From Prevotella sp. (GTDB lineage Bacteria > Bacteroidota > Bacteroidia > Bacteroidales > Bacteroidaceae), in NCBI GenBank assembly GCA_017467535.1, contig JAFUST010000084.1, positions 1 through 59,626 on the forward strand: a DNA stretch of 59,626 nt. The letters run 5' to 3'. Shown here one piece after another: positions 18,093 through 59,626 of the stretch (positions are counted from its first letter, which is position 1; each line of letters starts with the position of its first letter). Under the pieces are notes generated by a model that did no database searches, was not told where the DNA came from, and saw only the letters and a list, made by a program, of their open reading frames with translations. Made by a program: the position numbers and the translations under genes.

Positions 18093-18914
18093 TCACCAGT
18101 CCCTCAGCAGTTCCTCGGCCTCTATCAGGTCCTCCACGTCATCGGGCAGGTCGGGGAAGAAGTTGTAGCCCGTCCGCTCCTCCACGTCGTCCACCGAACA
18201 GGCCCGCTCGCGCCAGGGCTGTCTGTTCCCGTCGTTGCGGAAGATGAATCCGATGGCCTTGCGCTGCGGCTTTTCGCGGTAGACCACCTTGAAGAATCCG
18301 CTGGGCACCTGCACCCTGTTGCGCCCGATGAATCTGGGCTCGCCCTCATAGATGGGGCCGCACACGACGGTCACCTCGCCATAGCGGCGGGCCCACGTGC
18401 GGCACTGCATCTCCAGCGCGTTCCAGTCCTCCTTGTTCAGCCCGTGGTTCTGCGGGCAGATGTTCGTCATCAGAAACGACTCCGTCATCGCCTGCTGGTC
18501 CCACTTGTTGTCGCCTGCGGGGCACATGTGCCCCCGGTCGTAGCGCGAGTTGTAGTAGTCCTGATAGGTGGCGCGCGGGGCCGGCACGTCCGTGTCCTCC
18601 TCGAATCGCTCGTTCTGCCGCTGCAGGTCGCCGTAGGTGTGGGCCTTCGTCAGCGTCCAGGCCACCCAGTTGGGCGTCTTCCGCTGCTTGTTGTACGAGG
18701 TCACGTAGCCCCGCCTCTCCAGCATGATCTCCGATGTGCCCCGGCCCACCCGCTGCTTCAGCAGGTTGACGGGTCTGTTGGGTGCCTGCTGCAGGGCGGG
18801 TGTGGCAGCCAGCGTCTCTATCTGTTCGGTCTCCGCCGTCTGCTGTTGCGGCTGTCCTTTGCAGGCGGCCAGCAGGAGCAGTGCCGAGAGTAGGGTGATG
18901 GAAAACTTGTTCAT
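18093..18914 (-). CDS. Lipoprotein DNA/RNA non-specific endonuclease
   Basis: 273 residues from the ATG at 18914 (an upstream ATG at 18953 lies in the promoter). The signal MNKFSITLLSALLLLAAC has a lipobox with the Cys at residue 18. The nuclease motif is YDRGHMCPAGDNKW (DRGH, catalytic His, about residue 125), followed by MTNICPQNHGLNKEDWNALE with the metal-binding Asn and Glu, then VVCGPIY and VPSGFFKVV: the Serratia-type NUC family. It probably degrades extracellular DNA or RNA at the cell surface for nutrient uptake or biofilm turnover. Confidence 0.92.
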   Translation of the reverse strand: MNKFSITLLSALLLLAACKGQPQQQTAETEQIETLAATPALQQAPNRPVNLLKQRVGRGTSEIMLERRGYVTSYNKQRKTPNWVAWTLTKAHTYGDLQRQNERFEEDTDVPAPRATYQDYYNSRYDRGHMCPAGDNKWDQQAMTESFLMTNICPQNHGLNKEDWNALEMQCRTWARRYGEVTVVCGPIYEGEPRFIGRNRVQVPSGFFKVVYREKPQRKAIGFIFRNDGNRQPWRERACSVDDVEERTGYNFFPDLPDDVEDLIEAEELLRDW

Positions 18915-18997: not shown

Positions 18998-19173
18998 GTT
19001 CCAGGGGGTGGAACATTTTGTTCCAGAGGCTGGAACATTTTGTTCCATGGGGTGGAACATTTTGTTCCGACGCTCCGAACAACCTGTTCCAAGGCCTCGA
19101 ACAACCTGTTCCAAGGCCTCGAACATTGTGTTCAGAGCCTTTGAGCACGCTGTTCAGTGGCTTCGAACGTGTG
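18998..19173. repeat. Array 1: eight 22-bp tandem palindromic repeats
   Basis: Eight consecutive units of exactly 22 bp starting at 18998, 19020, 19042, 19064, 19086, 19108, 19130 and 19152. Each has a 17-bp dyad core of the form GTTC(C/A)-N7-(G)GAAC and a 5-bp spacer (ATTTT, AACCT, ATTGT and others). Examples: GTTCCAGAGGCTGGAAC and GTTCCAAGGCCTCGAAC. A further GTTCC at 19218 is exactly in register (ten units on), so decayed units probably continue to about 19239. The unit length is not a multiple of three, and no stop-free frame here looks like a protein. Confidence 0.9.
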
Positions 19174-19339
19174 CTTCTGCCGCCCGGCACAGATGCTGCC
19201 GCCGCTTGGCTCGCCTCGTTCCACTGGCCGGCGCGTCTGCCGCGGTTTCGCGTTCTGCTGCTCCGGCGCGCTGCGCTTTTTTGCAAAAATGGCTGATTTT
19301 GACTAAAAATGAGCACTTTTTTTAGTGAAAAAATGTAAA

Positions 19340-19414
19340 ATCTATCACATCTATCACCATATCTGTCATCACTCAAACCTCGATAAACAAAGGAAAGTGA
19401 TAGATGTGACAGAT
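19340..19414. terminator. Long hairpin, possible bidirectional terminator
   Basis: ATCTATCACATCTATCAC (19340-19357) pairs with 19397-19414 at 17 of 18 positions; the loop is 39 nt. T-runs follow in both directions (six or more T after 19414; T-rich on the other strand). No gene runs into it from the left on the plus strand, so its purpose is unclear. Confidence 0.45.
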
Positions 19415-19682
19415 TTTTTTCAAAAATCTCTGTGTAGGAAAAAACGGCCTTTTCGTCCTCTGCCGACAGTCCGACGGAGTCGTCCGGCTACTTCCGTGTA
19501 TAAAACAGTTGGGCAAAATCAATGTTCTAAAAAAGCGCTCCTCATGTTCAAAAATCTGTTAAAGCAATGAAATTACCCCCCCCCTTATTTGTTAAAAAGG
19601 ATTAAATAAAGGTTTATATATTGGTGGTATTATTGTCTATTTAGGTAAAAACCATTAAATTTGTACAATATTTCTGTTCTTT
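19415..19682. other. Gene-free stretch upstream of the fimbrial operon
   Basis: No credible gene. It contains an eight-C run near 19577 and an AT-rich section from about 19590 to 19680. TTTG at 19660-19663 and TTTG-like sequence at 19679-19683 do not have proper spacing, so I cannot place the operon promoter with confidence. Confidence 0.4.
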
Positions 19683-19748: not shown

Positions 19749-21341
19749 ATGACGAAAAGTCAGAGTTGTAGAAAATTATTTGGATTATTGGTGATGCAAG
19801 TTTGCCTGTTGGCTTTCAGCAACCGCATCACTGCCCAAGGCCCCGCGGACTTGGCCTTTGTCGATTCTGTGGCACCGTCTCAGGTGGCCGTGCGCACCAA
19901 TCTGCTTTGGTGGGGCACCTTGACCCCCAACGTGGGCGTCGACTTCCGGCTCAGTCCCAAGTGGTCTCTGGGGGTCAACGCCGGCCTCAATCCCTGGACA
20001 TTCTCCGAAAACAAGAAGTGGAAGCACCTGCTCATAGCGCCCGAGTTGCGCCACTGGAACAAGCAGACCTTCCAGACCCCCTCCTCCTACTGGGGCCTGA
20101 ATGCCTTCTACAGCCACTACAACGTGGGCCACGTGAAGTTCCCCTTCGGCCTCTACCGTGAAGTGCGCGACCATCGTCTGCAGGGCGATCTCGTGGCGCT
20201 CGGCCTCTTCTATGGTCGCACCTGGCGGCTCAGCCGTCTGTTCCGCATGGAGGCAGAGTTGGGTCTCGGTGGCGGCTATACGTGGTACGACAAGTTCGAG
20301 TGTGCCGTCTGCGGCACCAAGGTCGGCGACGACCGCAAGGCCTTCCTGGTTCCCAAGTTGGCCCTCAATCTGGTGCTCGATCCCGGCAGGAAGGTTCGCA
20401 TCGGGCGGCCCGTCATCATCGAGCCGGTAGACACCGTCGTGCCGGAGAAGGTGGAGGTGCTGCCCGTGCTGAAGTCCAGGCCCCTCAAGCCGCAGACACA
20501 GGGCGACGTGCTGATGGCCGACAATGCCGTGCTGCAGGAGTTCTCACACTACAAGCCCTACGACCGGACCCGCGTCATGCGGCGTGACTCCGGTGCACTC
20601 TTCGTCCACTTCACCGTGGGCAAGGCCGAACTGGGCCGCGGCTTCCGCCAGAATGCCGAGACGCTCGACCGCATCGTCAGCATCACCCGCCAGATCATGG
20701 CCGACCCGAAGAGCAACGTGCGGCTGATCCAGATCATCGGCTTCGCCTCCATCGAAGGCCGCGTGCAGCCCAACGAGCAGTTGGCCCAGCAGCGTGCCGA
20801 GGCCCTGAAGCGCTACGTGCAGCAGCAGACCGGCGCTGCCGACTCGCTGTTTGAGTTGAACAACGGCGGCGAGGCCTGGGCCGAGTTCCGCGACCAGGTG
20901 GAAGAGATGCTGGAGCAGGGCCGCGGCGATGCCGCCCAACTGCGCCAGGTGCTGGCCGTCATCAGCGAGGAGCCCGATGCCGACCGCCGCGAGCAGCGTC
21001 TGCGCCGCTTGAACGGAGGCCGCACGTGGCAGTACATCAAGCAGAGCGTGCTGGCCGACCAGCGCAACTCCGGCTATCTGCGCATCTATTTCGACCGTGT
21101 GCCCGACCGTCAGGCCGAGCAGATCAACCGGGCCGCCGCCCTCCTGCAGCAGGAGCGCTACGACGAGGCCCTCTCTATATTAAATAAGGTACGCGAGGAC
21201 CAGCGTTCGTGGAACGCCCTCGGCGTTGCGCTCTACATGACCGGCCATCGTGCCGAGGCTCTCGACTATTTCCAGCAGGCAGCCGCCCAGGGCGATGCCG
21301 ATGCCCAGGAGAATCTGCGGCAGTTGGAGGATAAAAGATAG
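19749..21341 (+). CDS. DUF3575 / OmpA-like / TPR protein heading the fimbrial operon
   Basis: 530 residues in three parts. After a signal peptide (about 1-30) comes a DUF3575 domain (about 45-215: VRTNLLWWGTLTPNVGVDF, NPWTFSENKKWKHLLIAPE, FYSHYNVGHVKFPFG), an eight-strand barrel-like domain found beside fimbrial genes in Bacteroidales. Then an OmpA-like region (about 285-400: HFTVGKAELGRGFRQN, IQIIGFASIEGRVQPNEQLA, QQRAEALKRYV) likely to bind peptidoglycan. Last a short TPR region (about 455-525: LLQQERYDEALSILNKVR, NALGVALYMTGHRAEALDYF). It is probably an outer-membrane assembly or anchoring partner for the pilus. The start at 19749 has AAAAGG just upstream. Confidence 0.82.
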   Translation: MTKSQSCRKLFGLLVMQVCLLAFSNRITAQGPADLAFVDSVAPSQVAVRTNLLWWGTLTPNVGVDFRLSPKWSLGVNAGLNPWTFSENKKWKHLLIAPELRHWNKQTFQTPSSYWGLNAFYSHYNVGHVKFPFGLYREVRDHRLQGDLVALGLFYGRTWRLSRLFRMEAELGLGGGYTWYDKFECAVCGTKVGDDRKAFLVPKLALNLVLDPGRKVRIGRPVIIEPVDTVVPEKVEVLPVLKSRPLKPQTQGDVLMADNAVLQEFSHYKPYDRTRVMRRDSGALFVHFTVGKAELGRGFRQNAETLDRIVSITRQIMADPKSNVRLIQIIGFASIEGRVQPNEQLAQQRAEALKRYVQQQTGAADSLFELNNGGEAWAEFRDQVEEMLEQGRGDAAQLRQVLAVISEEPDADRREQRLRRLNGGRTWQYIKQSVLADQRNSGYLRIYFDRVPDRQAEQINRAAALLQQERYDEALSILNKVREDQRSWNALGVALYMTGHRAEALDYFQQAAAQGDADAQENLRQLEDKR

Positions 21342-53776: not shown

Positions 53777-54658
53777 ATGAAGAAATTTGTCCTAGACTTG
53801 AAGGTCAAGTCCGTGGAGAAGGTGCATGAGCGCTATGTGCTGATACGCCTGACCGATGACCAGCCGCTGCCGGAGATGCAGCCGGGGCAGTTCGTAGAGG
53901 TCAGGGTAGACGGTTCGCCCGCCACCTTCCTGCGCCGACCGATATCCATCAACTTCGTTGACCGTCAGGCCAACGAACTGTGGTTGCTCGTAGCCTGTGT
54001 GGGCGACGGCACCCGCCGTCTGGCCGAACTGAGGCCCGGCGACACCCTCAACTGTATGTTGCCACTGGGCAATGGGTGGACTTGTCCACAGAAGACTCTC
54101 CCCCGGCCCCTCCCTGTAAGGGAGGGGAGTGGTTACTCTCAAGCACAGTCACTATCTACTCCCCTCCCTCACAGGGAGGGGTTGGGGGAGAGTCTGTTGG
54201 GGGAGAGTCTTTTTCTCCTCATCGGTGGCGGCGTGGGCGTGGCTCCGCTGCTCTATCTGGGGGCGGTGCTGCGGCAGAGTGGGGTAGAGCCCACGTTTCT
54301 GCTGGGTGCCCGTTCGAAGAAAGACCTGCTGATGCTGCAGGAGTTTGAGAAGTATGGCCGCGTGCTGGTGACCACCGAGGACGGTTCGATGGGCGAACGG
54401 GGCTTCGTGACCAACCACAGTGTGCTGCAGCAGGAGCACTTCGACCTCATCCAGTGCTGTGGCCCCACGCCGATGATGAAGGCCGTGGCCCGCTATGCCC
54501 GCCAGAGCGGCACGGCGTGCGAGGTGTCGCTGGAGAACCTGATGGCTTGCGGACTGGGGGCCTGCCTGTGCTGTGTGGAGAAAACCACCGAGGGCAACCT
54601 GTGTGTCTGCAAGGAGGGACCTGTGTTTAACATCAATAGACTGCTATGGCAAGACTAA
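53777..54658 (+). CDS. pyrK: Dihydroorotate dehydrogenase electron-transfer subunit PyrK with in-frame repeat insertion
   Basis: 293 residues. PyrK carries FAD and a [2Fe-2S] cluster and passes electrons from PyrD to NAD. FAD-binding part: [11 protein letters not shown] and [10 protein letters not shown]; nucleotide part: [18 protein letters not shown]; cluster part: [23 protein letters not shown], split here as CGLGACLCC plus a later Cys. Between GNGWTCP and LFLLIGGG about 40 extra residues ([20 protein letters not shown], then [19 protein letters not shown]) are encoded by an inverted pair of the C/G-rich palindromic element. The frame is kept. The insert falls at a domain boundary, so the enzyme may still work. 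It overlaps pyrD by 13 nt. Confidence 0.92.
54094..54209. repeat. Inverted pair of C/G-rich palindromic elements, copy F (inside pyrK)
   Basis: Left arm 54094-54132 (GACTCTCCCCCGGCCCCTCC ... AGGGAGGGGAGTGG) and right arm 54156-54194 are near-perfect reverse complements, about 23 nt apart. A direct repeat of TGTTGGGGGAGAGTC-like sequence follows (54180-54194 and 54195-54209). The architecture equals that of the C/D pair between korB and korC, but here it lies within a gene and adds 40 codons. Confidence 0.85.
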
Positions 54659-59462: not shown

Positions 59463-59550
59463 GTTTGGAGCCTCCAAACGCACCGTTTGGAGGCTTCAAA
59501 CGGGTAGTTTGAAGGCTTCAAACACGGTGCTTGGAGTGCCTCGGTGAAGG
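59463..59550. repeat. Array 2: 22-bp tandem palindromic repeats
   Basis: Units of exactly 22 bp at 59463, 59485 and 59507, with a decayed fourth at 59529. Cores: GTTTGGAGCCTCCAAAC, GTTTGGAGGCTTCAAAC, GTTTGAAGGCTTCAAAC; 5-bp spacers GCACC, GGGTA, ACGGT. Base changes in one arm are matched in the other (GGAG/CTCC versus GAAG/CTTC). Same 17+5 geometry as array 1. It starts 36 bp after the pectate lyase stop codon. Confidence 0.88.
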
Positions 59551-59620
59551 TCGCTTCCAGCGGCCTTATACTACCTTCTCTCTCGTAGAGAGAAGTACGT
59601 ATAGGCCCTGAAGCCTTCAC
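59543..59620. terminator. Long imperfect hairpin after array 2
   Basis: GGTGAAGG (59543-59550) pairs with CCTTCACC (59613-59620); inside, GGCCTTATACTACCTTCTCT (from 59562) pairs with bulges to the sequence ending at 59607, with a CGT loop in CTTCTCTCT-CGT-AGAGAGAAG. It may end the pectate lyase transcript or be the outer part of a mobile repeat. The window ends just after it. Confidence 0.5.
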
Positions 59621-59626
59621 CTCGGC

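Follow-up and report, generated by a model that had tools for sequence, protein, structure and literature searches.

Palindromic arrays with a strict 22-bp pitch and varied half-site sequences are dispersed through Prevotella genomes

PINSR is a 188-bp intergenic repeat of Prevotella intermedia and Prevotella nigrescens, of unknown function and thought to be non-coding; two P. intermedia strains carry 177 and 184 copies of it (PMC4755523). It is described as lacking terminal inverted repeats and was judged clade-specific by PCR and database search (PMC4755523). Pneumococcal BOX elements, dispersed in many copies, combine fixed end modules with a variable number of tandem middle modules (PMC3049150). 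REP/RAYT repeats are short dispersed palindromes that are mostly extragenic (PMC3733652, PMC12306157), and the Rickettsia palindromic elements, about 150 bp long, lie in frame inside unrelated genes (PMC10969869).

The window, which is the whole 59,626-nucleotide stretch of Prevotella sp. DNA analysed here, contains an array of eight 22-bp units at 18998..19168 (no strand assigned), established by dyad scoring, Tandem Repeats Finder and shuffles. Each unit consists of a 17-bp dyad (GTTCC/GTTC..GGAAC/GAAC) and a 5-bp spacer. The units start at 18998, 19020, 19042, 19064, 19086, 19108, 19130 and 19152, with Watson-Crick pairs at 5 to 7 of the 8 dyad positions. The eight units described in an earlier note on this DNA are confirmed, and none is expected from shuffles: the two-unit pattern occurs seven times in the window (five times in this array and twice at 59463) vs 0 in 100 dinucleotide shuffles, and the six-unit dyad score is 27 of 30, against 17 to 21 in 50 simple shuffles of the window. 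Tandem Repeats Finder scores are 95 to 144. Outer GTTC/GAAC arms had been claimed for all units; seven of the eight fit the strict GTTY-N9-RAAC pattern, while unit 7, GTTCAGAGCCTTTGAGC, does not. Past the last unit, a degenerate stretch at 19174..19239 (no strand assigned) holds weak dyads and a GTTCC at 19218, which is 18998 + 10 x 22 and hence in register with the array. That this stretch consists of decayed units, as had been suggested, is plausible; the dyad pairs at 19174 and at 19196 number 3 of 8 each, so that the intermediate units are too weak to call.

The array is not alone in its genome. Across the 2.39-Mb assembly, 74 matches to GTTY-N9-RAAC-N5-GTTY-N9-RAAC were counted, and the reversed control gave 0. 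Among the matches listed, 22 arrays were examined, from 20 fetched stretches and the window, and further ones exist beyond these; the 22 contain 2 to 8 units, fade at their ends, and are written in four dialects: A (GTTCC..GGAAC, to which the 18998 array belongs), B (GTTTC..GAAAC), C (GTTTGGACGGAGCAAAC) and D (GTTTGGAGGCTTCAAAC). A second array in the window, found by pattern search, Tandem Repeats Finder and dyad scoring, is of dialect D and has the three units GTTTGGAGCCTCCAAAC, GTTTGGAGGCTTCAAAC and GTTTGAAGGCTTCAAAC at 59463..59523 (no strand assigned), 35 bp beyond the end of a called gene and with 103 bp left to the contig end. Three D-type arrays (window 59463-59626 and the ends of contigs C18 and C36) have common flanks and lie 85-110 bp from contig ends, and for this reason they may sit inside a longer repeat that breaks the assembly.

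The recurrence of 22-bp-period arrays in relatives, which the earlier note had proposed to check, was found as well. Matches are present in 56 of 150 same-genus genomes (own included), with a maximum of 333 places in the genome G377, so the refuting condition set in the earlier note, a lack of other such arrays, does not apply. In a set of 60 relatives, 16 match (own included), among them 14 of 35 same-genus genomes besides the own; across the phylum, 11 of 296 genomes match, own included, and the ten others are two same-family genomes with 4 places each and eight with 1-3. Because the survey patterns fix the 17+5 geometry, these counts measure presence and cannot show other pitches. The reversed "control", CAAR..YTTG, is itself common in other same-genus species, with 128 matches in G403, 115 in G463 and 106 in G017. 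Among the matches listed (G403, G365, G008 and part of G027), the half-sites behind it differ: TTTTGC in G403, CAAASTCA in G365 and CAAASTA in G008. Some species thus place other arms (CAAASTCA, CAAASTA, GTTTTGC, GTCCG) on the identical 17+5 geometry. A scan of named genomes with the A-type pattern gave 12 stretches in six genomes, all Prevotella or Prevotellaceae, and at loci L083 and L089 a single array passes from one set of arms to another without leaving the 22-bp register. These two and others of L081-L092 run on into ATCC..GGAT and ATTCC..GGAAT dyads with the register unchanged, and some carry CTTC..GAAG dyads on the opposite side. Two pattern scans also recorded GTTCC or GTTTG 17+5 arrays on eleven viral contigs of varied base composition (L216-L226). 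No phage match was obtained for the window array, and a phage or plasmid origin was rejected.

While the unit sequence varies by species, the geometry is constant in the genomes looked at closely. In all four of these genomes, distances of up to 80 bp to the next unit take only two values, 22 and 44 bp: 29 and 4 pairs, respectively, in G377 (33 pairs), 32 and 1 (33) and 3 and 26 (29) for two unit forms in G403, 14 and 2 (16) in G365, and 33 and 1 (34) in G008. The 22-bp step with 17-bp dyads that had been described at this locus therefore recurs strictly, and even the diverged units of G377, at 0.69 identity, show no 21- or 23-bp step. A sequence-agnostic scan for 17-bp dyads at periods 14-39, covering 123 fetched stretches (906 kb), returned 110 arrays with period 22, and no other period gave more than 2; since many of these stretches had been picked for 22-bp arrays, the scan tests strictness and not abundance. 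The G403 consensus has AAAA at 1, 23, 45 and 67 and TTTT at 12, 34 and 56, a ladder in which the two alternate every 11 bp exactly. The CGTTT and AAACG cores of G377 follow each other mainly at 8 bp (44 of 106 steps) and 14 bp (42), and the remaining steps are mainly 22 bp between like cores; on the present authors' reading, these cores are 11 bp apart if the half-site is taken as the eight bases CGTTTYRS.

One lineage form of these arrays appears to have been published already. G403 contains a repeat of about 215 bp, built of a head, units and a tail, which recurs along its chromosome (47 copies examined). This repeat matches two P. nigrescens records, at best with 78% identity over 79% of the query and at 13 places in one 568-kb record, and the P. 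nigrescens copy has the same ladder; a plasmid search with the repeat returned the two P. nigrescens records. From these matches, G403 appears to carry PINSR or an ortholog. Like PINSR, the G403 repeat has many intergenic copies, with 0 of 32 arrays in a called gene. The own genome differs: its 74 matches are of other dialects, the window arms (GTTCC) differ as well, and 4 of 22 arrays lie in open reading frames (ORFs). The accessible part of the PINSR account concerns a 188-bp repeat of one clade and mentions neither a 22-bp pitch nor kin in other clades nor in-gene copies (PMC4755523). The earlier note's statement that no described element has this form should thus be qualified: PINSR appears to be one lineage form, but the ladder is absent from that part of its description. 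In the open-licence literature, as far as its accessible text goes, no other 22-bp-pitch array in Bacteroidetes was found, and PINSR and Prevotella are named together only in PMC4755523.

A comparison with the other known systems shows both likeness and difference. The head, units and tail of the G403 repeat resemble BOX; around the window array such end modules are not evident, with few A-type copies for comparison. BOX modules, in the accessible part of their description, are sequence families with terminal inverted repeats likened to those of insertion sequences (PMC3049150), whereas here the pitch is what stays constant. The in-frame position of the Rickettsia elements is matched by the 4 of 22 own-genome arrays in ORFs and by arrays in one linker of six other species, but those elements are single palindromes of about 150 bp as far as described (PMC10969869), and the units here are tandem and 22 bp long. 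A CRISPR array was rejected on sizes, a 17-bp unit with a 5-bp spacer as against 24-48-bp repeats with regularly sized unique spacers.

The four own-genome arrays inside ORFs have three units each. Three of these ORFs have Pfam domains: a TolC-like efflux protein (array after the first OEP match), a CbiA/CobB-like protein, and a U32 peptidase (array just after DUF3656). The fourth, an ORF without a known family that comes from ORF calling, may not be a gene. Three-unit arrays make up 12 of the 22, and the chance of four of four in ORFs is 0.07. Among 25 aligned U32 linkers, clear 22-bp arrays are found in the own genome and in G035, and one weak dyad pair in G356. Another palindromic element, at 54080-54215 of the window, has a long near-perfect stem (RNA fold z -9.5) and is read in frame as part of a gene whose domains are DHODB Fe-S and NAD-binding; it is closer to the Rickettsia palindromic elements than the ladders are. 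Its sequence is similar to that of residues 413-467 or so in the CbiA-like query, a region with matches at many other own-genome places.

The CbiA linker, in the cobyrinate synthase, offers a view of one gene position in many species. Of 21 loci fetched, 20 had a scorable linker, and with 300 shuffles per segment seven of them score 18.8-23.5, while the highest shuffle over all segments reaches 15.2. The seven are the own genome, G018, G369, G356, G025, G013 and G359. In G018, G369, G356, G025 and G013 the segment is 141 bp long with three units from base 46, and the units are all different: GTTCCCACGCTGGGAAC, GTCCGAAAGCAGCGGAC, AGTCCCAGGGAGGGAAT, ATTCCCAACGTGGGAAT and GTTCGCTCCCTACGGAC, with the weakest dyad in G356. 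One gene position thus carries arrays whose spelling differs among five species. In the own genome the segment is shorter by 15 bp and the array has a different offset, and in G359 the segment is 204 bp; G020 and G373 have 141-bp segments without an array, the segment of G355 and G035 is 68 bp with the frame broken there, and the G033 linker holds a 386-aa ORF without a Pfam family (L280 277-1434, minus strand). Apart from outliers the CbiA proteins are about 70-80% identical; their tree is poorly resolved, with array-free species interspersed with array-bearing ones. The G369 array is found at one place only in G369, and that of G356 at two other places at 75-77%, one of which has clear GTCCG units. 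Three histories would account for this: concerted rewriting of an ancestral array, repeated replacement of one array by another at one spot, or independent insertions at the same tolerant point.

These observations suggest, with slightly better than even confidence, that the window array is one copy of a dispersed class of Prevotella DNA elements, a ladder that would serve as binding sites for a dimeric protein whose specificity changes fast. Inverted half-sites in 17-bp dyads at an exact 22-bp pitch would bring alternate half-sites onto the same helix face at intervals of about 11 bp, or one helical turn, and a dimeric DNA-binding protein could occupy such a ladder side by side. The specificity of the binder may shift quickly between and within lineages, and the binder would be part of a mobile or chromosome-organising system by which the arrays are spread or maintained, rather than a regulator of the nuclease or other neighbours. 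The comparison is with lambda-type operators, which are tandem 17-bp dyads with short spacers that bind cooperative dimers; those lie at one locus, whereas the arrays are scattered through the genome. A tandem dimer-operator model is suggested by the strict pitch, the independently varying half-sites, 17-mers more alike than spacers (in C, D and G365) and the change of half-sites between species, while the spread, the in-ORF copies and the dialect changes at a fixed site suggest a mobile or self-maintaining element. Several findings count against a binder: no binding protein, transposase or other partner was found, the own-genome sets show a pairing excess, RNA folds are strong, gene context depends on the species, and the spacers of dialects A and B are more alike than their units. 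The single place of the G369 CbiA array is also unlike a dialect sweeping a genome.

A further proposal, tentative and rather doubtful, is that the geometry is inherited and the spelling is not: an ancestral array might hold on to its site, its number of units and its 22-bp pitch while every half-site in it is respelled at once in a new dialect, with the five unit sequences at one offset of the CbiA linker as the example. Such rewriting would need either an enzyme that writes arrays anew from a template or a binder that co-evolves fast, with its arrays displacing each other at the same sites, and the CbiA linker is a direct handle on this turnover at a fixed site. What is new here is the definition of a class by pitch and not by sequence, with many dialects and one gene position in different spellings; one lineage form had been published. 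Interspersed repeats are usually defined by sequence, and a class defined by helical pitch would therefore escape sequence searches; the clade-specific verdict on PINSR rested on sequence and PCR (PMC4755523, in its accessible part). Should a protein read the ladder, an abundant DNA-binding system of a major gut and oral genus would have gone undescribed.

The first alternative to a bound ladder is a neutral minisatellite, in which slippage of a local palindrome makes and homogenises units that have no function. Adjacent units are indeed alike, the unit number varies and the ends fade, as slippage would have it, and in dialects A and B the spacers (identity 0.88, n=12) are at least as alike as the units (0.79, n=18). 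Slippage would copy units and spacers equally faithfully, but spacers diverge more than units in the own-genome C and D arrays (0.47, n=15, vs 0.91, n=31, for the 17-mers) and in G365 (0.25, n=4, vs 0.89, n=14). Nor does it fit that the same pitch recurs with unrelated sequences, that the diverged G377 units keep their step, or that the head/tail repeat of about 215 bp recurs along the G403 chromosome. A minisatellite is accordingly improbable.

Little credit also goes to a structured RNA, that is, chains of hairpins in transcripts serving as terminators, 3'-UTR stabilisers or attenuators, and it is judged a shade less probable still. Nine arrays fold well: the window array has fold z values of -5.8 on the plus strand and -6.2 on the minus strand, and eight others range from -2.0 to -7.8, several as a single long hairpin. 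These folds are expected, because any ladder of alternating half-sites must fold. Of 46 elements in G403, 35 have a tail-side gene oriented towards them (binomial p 0.0005), as a transcript element would have it, while the head side is unbiased (24 of 47). Base pairing in three genomes tells against hairpins. In 81 G377 units from 29 arrays, Watson-Crick counts are 40 at pair 5-13 (36.5 +/- 4.4 in shuffles), 56 at 6-12 (51.6 +/- 3.2), 33 at 7-11 (32.6) and 17 at 8-10 (28.5), and G-T mismatches are about as frequent as A-C. The 5-13 pair is mostly G-G or C-C in G365 (9 of 13 distinct units) and often so in G008 (9 of 20). Moreover, hairpins need no invariant spacer length.

Complementarity was also compared with column shuffles in six sets and three geometries, namely within units, between adjacent units and mirrored across the array. 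Three of the six sets show no pairing excess in any geometry: G377 (z -1.5, -1.2 and -0.2, in that order), G008 (-1.3, -4.7 and -4.0) and the named Prevotella A-type arrays (-2.4, -2.5 and -6.2). G365 has one positive z (1.5) and two negative. The own-genome sets do exceed shuffles, C/D within units (z 2.6, the other two geometries near zero) and A/B in all three geometries (z 2.2-3.6; six arrays, two dialects pooled), an excess that is read as mixing of dialects and that pairing could also explain. A search at Rfam gathering thresholds placed no family on an array at 10 array loci and none in the window. Beside one PINSR-like array of G403, within about 300 bp and not on it, lies a match to the sRNA FopS (RF04319; L144 1762-1828, minus strand). 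The absence of excess complementarity in G377, G008 and the named A-type arrays favours DNA binding over structured RNA, with the own-genome sets on the other side, and the arrays are best read as putative DNA half-site ladders.

A REP/RAYT-type origin, in which extragenic palindromes are moved by a Y1 (HUH) transposase, is very improbable. The arrays are dispersed, palindromic and mostly intergenic, and the Y1 family PF01797 scores over its cut-off in the array-rich genomes G006, G391 and G463. The ORF in the G033 CbiA linker, for which Pfam names no family, has what is presumably an HUH-like motif. Yet the array-rich G017 and G008 lack PF01797 at E<=0.001, G377, G403, G452 and G454 are not among the matching genomes in the survey of 150, and a 22-bp dyad array is present at only 1 of 30 fetched Y1 loci and in 3 of 19 larger regions that surround Y1 hits and partly coincide with those loci. 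Of the two tags that mark the foot of a REP hairpin, GTAG is absent from the 10 bp flanking each of the 22 own-genome arrays and CGTC is present at one, though CGTC does occur inside C-type units. A Y1 transposase was consequently rejected as the partner, with no association in the 150-genome PF01797 survey or at Y1 loci. REP/RAYT repeats, so far as the accessible parts of their accounts describe them (PMC3733652, PMC12306157), resemble the arrays in being short and dispersed but differ from them in the association with this enzyme, in the strict pitch and in the varying arms. One six-unit A/T-rich 22-bp array lies close to a Y1 transposase gene in G459 (L119 2071 and L326 4099).

Gene context varies among species. 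Genes were called with a small hexamer model of the authors' own, which makes distances approximate, and the counts cover only arrays with a called neighbour on both sides. In G377 and G403, 0 of 50 arrays lie inside a called gene and none lies less than 174 bp upstream of a start. Nine further G377 loci include two arrays closer to a start, at 115 and 173 bp, and several own-genome, G365 and G008 arrays are likewise nearer than 174 bp, several of the own-genome ones within about 100 bp upstream of genes; a rule that arrays are never close upstream of a start was dropped after these loci. In G008, 8 of the 10 arrays with two called neighbours are in divergent gaps. No neighbour family has more than two members among 75 proteins of the 153 listed neighbours and the nuclease. 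Since the context differs by species, no single regulon or position rule holds across species.

Least probable of all is a local operator array, at which a repressor of the nuclease or of the divergent operon would bind cooperatively: the window array does lie in a divergent gap, 83 bp upstream of the called nuclease start, tandem 17-bp operators of the lambda kind are a known design, and one nuclease locus of another genome (L068, in G437) has an upstream 22-bp array with other arms, but 28 of the 29 other-genome nuclease loci have none, arrays of the same type adjoin unrelated genes or sit in ORFs, and none of the 50 arrays counted in G377 and G403 comes within 174 bp upstream of a start, though two further G377 arrays and several own-genome, G365 and G008 ones do.

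The nuclease survey on which this rests found a match in 138 of 150 genomes, and 30 loci were fetched, 29 of them from other genomes. With the array missing at 28, the idea that it is a conserved part of the nuclease locus was rejected, a local link to the nuclease is not supported, and control of the nuclease or of neighbours is unlikely as a general function of the arrays. The left-hand gene itself is as the earlier note had it, a DNA/RNA non-specific endonuclease (PF01223, E 2.1e-58; 18093..18914, minus strand), which is not thought to be part of the element. Plausible candidates for its consensus -33/-7 boxes are visible in the window sequence. The "fimbrial operon" to the right found no confirmation: the divergent neighbour, about 0.6 kb from the array and likewise not thought part of the element, is a DUF3575/TPR protein by Pfam (19749..21341, plus strand) with an OmpA match just below the cut-off, and the next four genes have no Pfam match and nothing over an NCBIfam cut-off. 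Between the array and the DUF3575 gene, at 19337-19417, lies a 21-bp inverted repeat whose arms are 95% complementary and 39 nt apart, with a fold z of -5.3.
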